A stretch of DNA of 64,000 nucleotides from Sinomicrobium kalidii (lineage in GTDB: Bacteria > Bacteroidota > Bacteroidia > Flavobacteriales > Flavobacteriaceae), in assembly GCF_021183825.1 (NCBI RefSeq), contig NZ_CP089211.1, positions 496,001 to 560,000 on the forward strand, in the 5' to 3' direction. Of the stretch, positions 6,534 through 8,004 are shown piece after piece. The translations under genes and the position numbers were made by a program. A model generated the notes under the pieces. That model saw only the letters and a list, made by a program, of their open reading frames with translations, ran no database searches and was not told the origin of the DNA. How positions within the stretch are numbered: the stretch's first letter is position 1; each line of letters begins with the position of its first letter.

Positions 6534-6541
6534 TATTTTTG
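6534..6541 (+). promoter_or_regulatory. -7 promoter box for the fluoride-riboswitch transcript
   Basis: TATTTTTG matches the Bacteroidota TAnnTTTG -7 box exactly and starts 16 bases after the lactonase stop. The expected start of transcription near 6548 would place the riboswitch aptamer about 14 bases into the transcript. The -33 region is only T-rich (TTTTTT at about 6507-6512) with no clean TTTG. Confidence 0.45.
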
Positions 6542-6561
6542 CTGCTTTAAAACACATCAGT

Positions 6562-6644
6562 GGCAATGGTGTCTGCCGGAAACCGCCCTTTTACCGGGGA
6601 TGATGGCGCCTGTTAATCCCCACTATCGTTACGGATAACGATAG
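6562..6644 (+). promoter_or_regulatory. Fluoride riboswitch (crcB motif) with expression-platform hairpins
   Basis: The aptamer runs from about 6562 to 6612. GGCA (6562-6565) pairs with TGCC (6574-6577). GGTGTC (6568-6573) pairs with GGCGCC (6605-6610), allowing G-U pairs. The conserved AAAC joint lies at 6580-6583, a CCC/GGG helix surrounds 6586-6599, and the conserved TGATGG is at 6601-6606. This layout and these invariant bases match the crcB/fluoride riboswitch, recalled from the 52-nt Thermotoga petrophila aptamer. Downstream, GGGGAT (6596-6601) can pair with ATCCCC (6616-6621), which would break the aptamer. A perfect 9-bp hairpin, CTATCGTTA/TAACGATAG, follows at 6623-6644. The next gene is a CLC-F-like antiporter, as expected for this riboswitch class. 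Confidence 0.9.
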
Positions 6645-6657
6645 CGGCACATTATTA

Positions 6658-8004
6658 ATGATAACAGGTATTGCCATGACCAGACAAGAACTTTCCGGAA
6701 AGCTGCTTTCGATACAACAACTCCCTTCCCTTTTTTTCCTGGGCAAATGGATAATGCTGTCCGCACTGGTCGGTATTTTAGCGGGTACGGCCTCTGCATT
6801 TTTTCTCATTGCTCTCAACTGGGCCACAGATTACCGGGAGGCCCATACCTGGATCATCTGGCTGCTTCCCCTGGGGGGACTGATCATAGGATTGAGTTAT
6901 CACTATTGGGGGCAGGACGTGGTAAAAGGAAATAACCAGCTCCTTGAAGAATTTTACAGCCCGAAACAGATCATCCCGCTCAAAATGGCCCCTCTGGTCC
7001 TGTTCGGCACCGTGGTCACCCATTTTTTCGGAGGGTCGGCAGGCCGTGAAGGTACTGCAGTCCAAATGGGAGGCGCCATTGCCGATCAGTTTACCCGGCT
7101 GTTCCGCATGCGGCCCAGGGACAGGAAGATACTACTCATTATCGGGATCAGCGCCGGGTTTGCCTCGGTCTTCGGCACACCGCTTGCCGGGGCGGTCTTT
7201 GCCCTCGAAGTCCTTGTGATCGGCAGGATGCGCTACGAGGCCCTCCTGCCCAGTTTTATCACTGCGGTCATTGCCGATTTTGTTTGTCGCTGGTGGCAGG
7301 TAGGCCATACTCACTACCATATCGCCGTAGTCCCTCAAATGCAGTTTTCCTTTTTGATGTGGGCAATCCTTGCCGGAATTTTTTTCGGACTGGCGGCACT
7401 CGCCTTTTCCCGTTCTACCCATTTCTTCGGCAACCTGTTCGGGACGAAAATAAAATATCCGCCCTTACGCCCCGTCATCGGCGGAGTGGTTATCGCCCTG
7501 GTCGTTTTCTTTATGGGCACCACAAAATATATAGGGCTGGGCATTCCCACGATCGTGGACGCTTTTGAAACAGAACTCCCGCCCTACGACTTTATCCTGA
7601 AAATATTTTTAACCGCATTCACTCTCGGGGCAGGTTTTAAGGGCGGTGAAGTTACACCCCTGTTCTTTATCGGGGCCACCCTGGGGAATGCCCTGGCCAT
7701 CTTTATCCCCCTGCCCGCCGCATTGCTCGCCGGAATGGGGTTTGTCGCCGTTTTTTCGGGAGCTACGAATACGCCCATTGCCTGCACCATTATGGGCATA
7801 GAACTCTTCGGTATTCAAAGCGGTATGTTCATAGCCATAGCCTGTGTTACGGCTTACATCTTCTCCGGGCATTCGGGCATTTATTCCTCACAAATTATCG
7901 GCAGTCCGAAACACCTCTTTTACGGCAGGGACCGCGGAAAAACATTAACAGAGGTGGACAAAAAACACAAACAAACATCAAAAAAAGACTTGCGGGGACT
8001 TTAA
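6658..8004 (+). CDS. CLC-family fluoride/proton antiporter (CLC-F / EriC-F type)
   Basis: A 448-residue CLC-family membrane protein. The proton-gate motif GREGT is at residues 129-133, and the C-terminal filter region reads FKGGEVTPLFFIGA. The chloride-type GSGIP signature is replaced by GNN at residues 91-93 (VVKGNNQLLEEF), the substitution described for fluoride-selective CLC-F proteins. The fluoride riboswitch directly upstream agrees. The protein should sit in the inner membrane and export fluoride in exchange for protons. A second start (ATG at 6676, giving MTRQELSGK) is equally plausible. The first ATG lies 13 bases after the platform hairpin, consistent with control at translation or at early elongation. 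Confidence 0.9.
   Translation: MITGIAMTRQELSGKLLSIQQLPSLFFLGKWIMLSALVGILAGTASAFFLIALNWATDYREAHTWIIWLLPLGGLIIGLSYHYWGQDVVKGNNQLLEEFYSPKQIIPLKMAPLVLFGTVVTHFFGGSAGREGTAVQMGGAIADQFTRLFRMRPRDRKILLIIGISAGFASVFGTPLAGAVFALEVLVIGRMRYEALLPSFITAVIADFVCRWWQVGHTHYHIAVVPQMQFSFLMWAILAGIFFGLAALAFSRSTHFFGNLFGTKIKYPPLRPVIGGVVIALVVFFMGTTKYIGLGIPTIVDAFETELPPYDFILKIFLTAFTLGAGFKGGEVTPLFFIGATLGNALAIFIPLPAALLAGMGFVAVFSGATNTPIACTIMGIELFGIQSGMFIAIACVTAYIFSGHSGIYSSQIIGSPKHLFYGRDRGKTLTEVDKKHKQTSKKDLRGL

Follow-up and report, generated by a model that had tools for sequence, protein, structure and literature searches.

A fluoride riboswitch aptamer ahead of a CLC-F antiporter gene in Sinomicrobium kalidii, with a proposed helix that masks the start region

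A short leader in the genome of Sinomicrobium kalidii raises the question of what it senses, which gene it serves and by what means it might switch that gene. The window, that is, the whole stretch of 64,000 nucleotides analyzed here (positions 496,001 to 560,000 of NZ_CP089211.1), holds this leader immediately ahead of a gene for a CLC-type transporter. A preliminary description had read the pair as a fluoride riboswitch controlling a CLC-F-type antiporter, and both the aptamer score and the protein tree reported below support that reading. The fuller answer proposed here, which we consider likely, is that the fluoride riboswitch turns on the only recognized fluoride exporter of the genome by unmasking its start. 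The coordinates of all features are collected in Table 1.

Table 1. Features of the leader and of the CLC genes; positions are those of the window except in the last row.
Feature	Position	Strand	Basis
TATTTTTG, matches the Bacteroidota -7 box TAnnTTTG	6534..6541	+	sequence
Fluoride riboswitch aptamer RF01734	6553..6619	+	cmscan
Aptamer P1	GGCA 6562-6565 / TGCC 6574-6577	+	sequence
Pseudoknot 5' strand GGTGTC	6568..6573	+	sequence; alignment of 24 aptamers
AAAC	6580-6583	+	sequence
TGATGG	6601-6606	+	sequence
5' arm of proposed masking helix (aptamer 3' strand)	6603..6618	+	MFE, pair probabilities, duplex energy
Pseudoknot 3' strand GGCGCC, also inside the 5' arm of the masking helix	6605..6610	+	sequence, folding
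Hairpin within masking helix, arms 6620-6631 and 6636-6647	6620..6647	+	inverted repeat of 12 nt, 92% complementary
Alternative in-frame ATG, adds MITGIA	6658..6660	+	less likely start
3' arm of proposed masking helix, ends in start-codon A and U	6660..6677	+	pairing probabilities
CLC-F-type fluoride/proton antiporter, 442 aa, stop codon ends at 8004	6676..8004	+	Pfam, 6d0j, tree, motifs
Second CLC, 604 aa, HGIPS + GLEGP (L178, L032)	G000:C1:1293730-1294803		motifs, chloride-type tree side

The identity of the RNA was established by cmscan, which assigned the leader to the fluoride (crcB) family RF01734 with 46.0 bits against a gathering score of 34 (E 1.4e-9) and covered model positions 1-64 of 64, a full-length match. 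The crcB hit above the gathering cut-off that the preliminary description had asked for was thus obtained. No other family reached its gathering score in the whole 64-kb window, and the 5.36 Mb single-contig genome contains this one RF01734 match only. The earlier claim that all aptamer helices and invariant bases are in place stands for P1, the long-range pseudoknot, AAAC and TGATGG; it fails at the base of the second stem, where cmscan marks the bottom pair, G6585.A6600, as non-standard, so that both stems and the pseudoknot are present with one irregular pair. Further leaders were gathered into a set of 54, made up of 44 CLC-F loci with an aptamer (from the best 80 of 537), the window, L033 and eight family loci. 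An A instead of C at the second-stem foot was found in 13 of the 54, the window included, and 10 of these 13 leaders also carry the GGCGCC pseudoknot strand. The aptamer match ends 56 nt before the CLC-F start, which makes the RNA the leader of a fluoride-related gene, and from its sequence it would be expected to bind fluoride. Aptamers above the cut-off were present in all six Sinomicrobium genomes, the window's own included, and in 20 of 397, 42 of 395 and 46 of 395 genomes sampled from the family, the order and the phylum, respectively.

The -7 box that had been noted upstream also holds up, as TATTTTTG fits TAnnTTTG and this motif is enriched in the leaders: 44 of 54 have it in the 45 nt preceding P1, against 2.5 expected from single-base shuffles, and in those 44 it ends 7-20 nt before P1. 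Because the available text of PMC9723704 places the Bacteroidota box at -12 to -5, transcription in the window would start near 6546, giving a leader of about 130 nt. By eye, no -33 element was evident at the usual spacing in the window.

The best start predicted for the downstream gene is 6676 (MTRQEL), favored because Sinomicrobium relatives begin at the equivalent position; on the same ground, the start at 6658 is kept merely as an alternative. The encoded protein matches Pfam PF00654 (Voltage_CLC) with 262.6 bits, and among solved structures its best relative is 6d0j, a CLC-type F-/H+ antiporter, at 211.7 bits, compared with at most 44.5 for chloride CLCs. According to the available part of PMC11139923, three CLC-F signatures have been published, with both GNN and GMG occurring among them. 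The protein carries all three: GREGT and GNN in place of GSGIP, as previously described, plus GEVTP. GNN lies in the context VVKGNNQLLEE and is invariant among six aligned sequences, GGEVTP spans residues 323-328, and E125 and E325 occupy the alignment positions of the outer and inner glutamates in 6D0J; in the chloride-type rows, the motifs are instead HGIP or similar to GSGIP. In a tree of 27 rows grouped by motif, which gave a long-branch warning for 6d0j, L199, L196 and L171, a 100/99 branch separated 16 CLC-F rows, 6d0j among them, from 11 others, including E. coli ClcA and the genome's other CLC. Among the outside rows, L199, without either motif, lies nearest to the CLC-F branch. Placement inside the chloride clade, the outcome that would have told against the early reading, was therefore not what this tree gave. 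Identity reaches 90% to the protein of Sinomicrobium weinanense and 85% to that of S. oceani. From these relationships, the protein would be expected to prefer fluoride over chloride and to exchange F- for H+. The window RNA is almost certainly a fluoride riboswitch aptamer, and the gene that follows it a fluoride exporter.

A search for the CrcB family found no match in the genome, while the same search was positive in 10 of 14 control genomes. There are two CLC matches, and the second bears chloride-type motifs (Table 1), so that the CLC-F is the only fluoride exporter recognized in the genome, as predicted from sequence. Gene neighbors were tested in 12 loci, five of them Sinomicrobium. A lactonase gene precedes the leader at L037, L033, L038 and L044, and an alpha/beta hydrolase gene follows the CLC-F at L037, L038, L044 and L040; at L040 no lactonase match occurs within about 1.9 kb upstream, and the L033 sequence ends ahead of where the hydrolase would begin. 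Neither neighbor was present in any of the seven loci from other genera, and no tie of the lactonase or hydrolase gene to fluoride was found.

The pairing of aptamer and exporter was also followed in relatives. Among the best 80 of 537 confirmed CLC-F loci, from named genomes, 44 have an upstream aptamer at E 0.01 or better, and the remaining 36 (e.g., in Polaribacter and Lutibacter) have none at that E value. Starting from the aptamer, 18 of 20 over-cut-off loci in the family, the window's own included, precede a CLC-F and two precede a CrcB assigned by Pfam, in a set that leaves out two further over-cut-off places. In the phylum and order loci (L117-L170), identification of the downstream gene by motif gave 37 CLC-F and 7 CrcB, with 10 of 54 unnamed; among those ten, a Pfam search covered L139 and L141. 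The aptamer of L141 (1501-1562, minus strand) lies before a sodium/hydrogen exchanger (PF00999), which the available text of PMC11139923 gives as a known kind of fluoride-riboswitch target. That of L139 (1501-1563, minus strand) precedes a dynamin-family GTPase of 491 aa (Dynamin_N, 97 bits), an unexpected gene for a fluoride riboswitch, and its aptamer strand enters a duplex of -23.3 kcal/mol followed by a T run, which looks terminator-type.

A separate observation concerns an ATG that follows the aptamer core at 0-13 nt, seen in 27 of the 54 leaders against 12.9 expected from single-base shuffling and absent from the window leader. In L111, L065, L071, L077, L083, L087, L016, L062, L063 and others, this ATG begins a frame of 10 codons, similar to MAYATVESFI, with the last base of its stop 5-6 nt short of the CLC-F start; a few other leaders have an ATG that reads in frame into the CLC-F. 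Since the codons of the frame, read by eye in a number of Flavobacteriaceae, vary in sense, no peptide is claimed.

The question of how the leader might act on its gene led to the region between aptamer and start codon. When the window RNA is folded, the 3' strand of the aptamer pairs with the start region around a local hairpin, and pairing probabilities reach 0.96-1.0 at 6663-6668, 1.0 at 6673-6675, 0.99 at A6676 and 0.96 at U6677. With the downstream part folded alone, the start-codon A falls to 0.09 and the U to 0.32, while 6673-6675 still pair locally at 0.6-0.7; mean pairing over -20 to +20 is 0.53 in the free RNA versus 0.32 in the downstream part alone. A folding energy of -30.2 kcal/mol (z -3.78) was obtained for the element 6595-6690, a stability reached by none of 200 shuffles; for the complete leader, 6549-6720, stability is unremarkable (z -1.66, with 9 of 200 shuffles doing as well). 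The aptamer strand and the start region form a duplex of -17.8 kcal/mol, where shuffles average -11.0 (p 0.017). As the 5' arm of this helix uses bases of the 3' half of the pseudoknot, the docked and masked states are mutually exclusive. By calculation, the helix that hides the initiation site and the aptamer are competing structures, with some results weaker or against this.

Recurrence of this pairing was computed on the 54 leaders. The helix was first spotted by eye in the first leaders, so the 54-locus shuffle, swap and accessibility tests and the pair tests on 28 leaders described below were not blind; related loci are not statistically independent, and where several start codons were candidates (e.g., L043, L050, L059, L085) the choice was made by hand. 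When the aptamer strand was paired with a 38-nt stretch reaching to the second codon and compared with 300 dinucleotide shuffles, the mean z was -1.49, with p<0.05 in 22 of 54 loci and p<0.01 in five; the 32 loci that miss p<0.05 include the congeners L040 (0.20) and L044 (0.87). Cognate partners paired better than swapped ones across the 54 loci (-10.9 vs. -8.3 kcal/mol, Z -8.5, with p at the lowest value that 20,000 permutations allow). The swap test gave Z -6.6 for 30 start regions less than 60% identical and Z -5.3 for 29 loci in which no named genus or genus label appears twice, a value that was the same for the 28 loci without L020.

Further loci were then scored, 50 of 56 taken, since three lacked a core or frame and three had too short a leader. 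In this set, which is mostly fresh although L131 closely resembles L084, the L010 type was already familiar and many are near copies from one genus, 36 of 50 reached p<0.05 against shuffles (28/36 CLC-F, 7/9 CrcB and 1/5 others) and 14 were not significant. Swapping gave Z -5.95 for CLC-F, -2.5 (p 0.008) for CrcB and -5.9 for 22 dereplicated loci.

An alignment of 28 leaders (26 distinct), picked by eye from the 54 for their common layout, allowed the helix to be followed pair by pair. With the helix named, 86.2% of cells were paired in register compared with 33-51% when slid by 1-3 positions; of 500 shuffles, 15 matched the covariation score and 4 the number of cells with both bases altered. 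No excess over shuffles was seen for pairs altered on both sides (182/500 shuffles as high) or for pair types (489/500), and one pair, columns 10 and 50, was changed on both sides in eight rows, column 10 being also a pseudoknot position. On this alignment, RNAalifold predicted just a small GGC/GCC stem and not the masking helix, for which reason the helix was tested through the named-structure pair count and the swap tests.

The effect on the start region itself is modest. Over -15 to +12 in the 54 loci, pairing was 0.48 in the free and 0.41 in the docked state, a difference of 0.07 where shuffles gave 0.03; the accessibility change reached p<0.05 in 10 loci, the window showing the largest effect, and was reversed in 11, among them L003, L076, L012 and L044. 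The helix falls 10-14 nt short of the start codon in many Flavobacteriaceae, and a start-codon base takes part in it in nine of the 54 loci. The Sinomicrobium leaders of the window, L037 and L033 use different letters to pair with the AUGAUGG part. We lean towards the view that Bacteroidota fluoride riboswitches share a translational platform, in which the start region and the pseudoknot's 3' strand are complementary and evolve together.

The mechanism proposed for the window, and judged reasonably probable when the masking step is taken by itself, would proceed as follows. At low fluoride, the strand 6603-6618, which holds the 3' half of the pseudoknot, would pair with 6660-6677 around the local hairpin, masking the region just 5' of and into the start codon and keeping ribosomes off. 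Fluoride together with magnesium would bind the nascent aptamer and hold this strand in the pseudoknot, leaving the start region open to ribosomes that load without Shine-Dalgarno pairing. The CLC-F would then be translated and would export fluoride in exchange for protons, so that the switch would act in the ON direction.

Several other readings have to be weighed against this proposal. Database names suggest that the protein is a chloride CLC and its link to the riboswitch incidental: among the 120 public matches listed, nearly all named relatives are called voltage-gated chloride channel or H+/Cl- antiporter ClcA, and the nearest NCBIfam models are ClcB and ClcA, even though far under cut-off (110.8 of 482). 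Such a reading is very hard to reconcile with the 6d0j score, with GNN, GREGT and GEVTP, and with a tree in which the genome's other CLC, with HGIPS and GLEGP, sits on the opposite side; it is judged extremely improbable. The masking helix might instead be a by-product of composition and shared descent beside a real aptamer, with some other feature gating the gene, as would fit the failure of RNAalifold to recover it, the weak accessibility effect over the 54 loci and the non-significant loci of the first and further sets. A by-product would not, however, be expected to pair in one register on the 28 leaders, to favor cognate over swapped partners in all swap tests or to reach the AUGAUGG part through different letters in three Sinomicrobium leaders, and we hold this explanation to be improbable.

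More weight, although still that of an unlikely alternative, is given to a switch with the same aptamer and exporter that controls transcription, RNA polymerase being stopped at low fluoride by the masking helix or by Rho factor. Intrinsic terminators are well documented in fluoride riboswitches that act on transcription, as the available text of PMC13273304 and PMC11077080 indicates, and the duplex and T run of the distant relative L139 imply that the same aptamer strand can serve a terminator. In the window, however, a simple pattern scan from 6553 to 6676 turned up nothing terminator-like between the aptamer and the start codon, so an intrinsic terminator was set aside as its platform; from 6620 to 6675, runs of T reach a length of 2 at most, T runs of 5 occur in only 3 of the 54 leaders, and the window helix extends into the start codon. 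A Shine-Dalgarno-like core was found in 2 of 54 leaders by a strict definition and in 17 of 54 by a looser one that includes AAGG. The available text of PMC6847099, on Flavobacterium johnsoniae, describes Bacteroidetes as lacking Shine-Dalgarno sequences, with structure within -20 to +20 tuning initiation. Control of translation is favored given the absence of a terminator-like site, the rarity of T runs and initiation without Shine-Dalgarno sequences in the host phylum.

Part of this picture is familiar. Riboswitch-controlled CLC-F antiporters were reportedly described by Stockbridge in 2012. In their available portions, PMC11139923 and PMC13273304 already report CLC-F under riboswitch control, that CLC-F and Fluc almost exclude one another, and fluoride riboswitches that act on translation; the former gives about 30% of CLC-Fs as under riboswitches and CLC-Fs as commonest in Bacteroidetes, and the latter names the Pseudomonas syringae fluoride riboswitch as translational control. 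With riboswitch-controlled CLC-F antiporters established, the pairing of aptamer and CLC-F in the window is ordinary in kind, and the proposed expression platform is the added part. In the literature searched, mostly papers available without subscription and some of them in part, no treatment of the platform of Bacteroidota fluoride riboswitches was found. The analysis corrects a standing chloride-channel mislabel for a group of proteins, names the only recognized fluoride exporter of the genome and provides in its leader set a ready test of riboswitch gating of translation in bacteria without Shine-Dalgarno sequences. If the proposal is true, a single strand both reads the ligand and hides the start, an arrangement suited to ribosomes that work without Shine-Dalgarno pairing.

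Compared with known systems, the window shares with RF01734 fluoride riboswitches a full-length match above the cut-off, both stems, the pseudoknot and a downstream fluoride gene; it differs in a second stem that ends in G.A and in a proposed platform that would hide a start region without a Shine-Dalgarno sequence. Its protein has in common with the Enterococcus casseliflavus antiporter 6D0J a GNN/GMG-type site, GREGT, GEVTP, the glutamates and the side of the tree, whereas 6D0J has M79 where the window protein has N. P. syringae uses Shine-Dalgarno sequences, and its fluoride riboswitch reportedly hides the Shine-Dalgarno site. Both would be presumed ON switches without a terminator in which the initiation site is hidden, but where the P. 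syringae switch would cover its Shine-Dalgarno site, that of the window would cover the start codon and its 5' flank.
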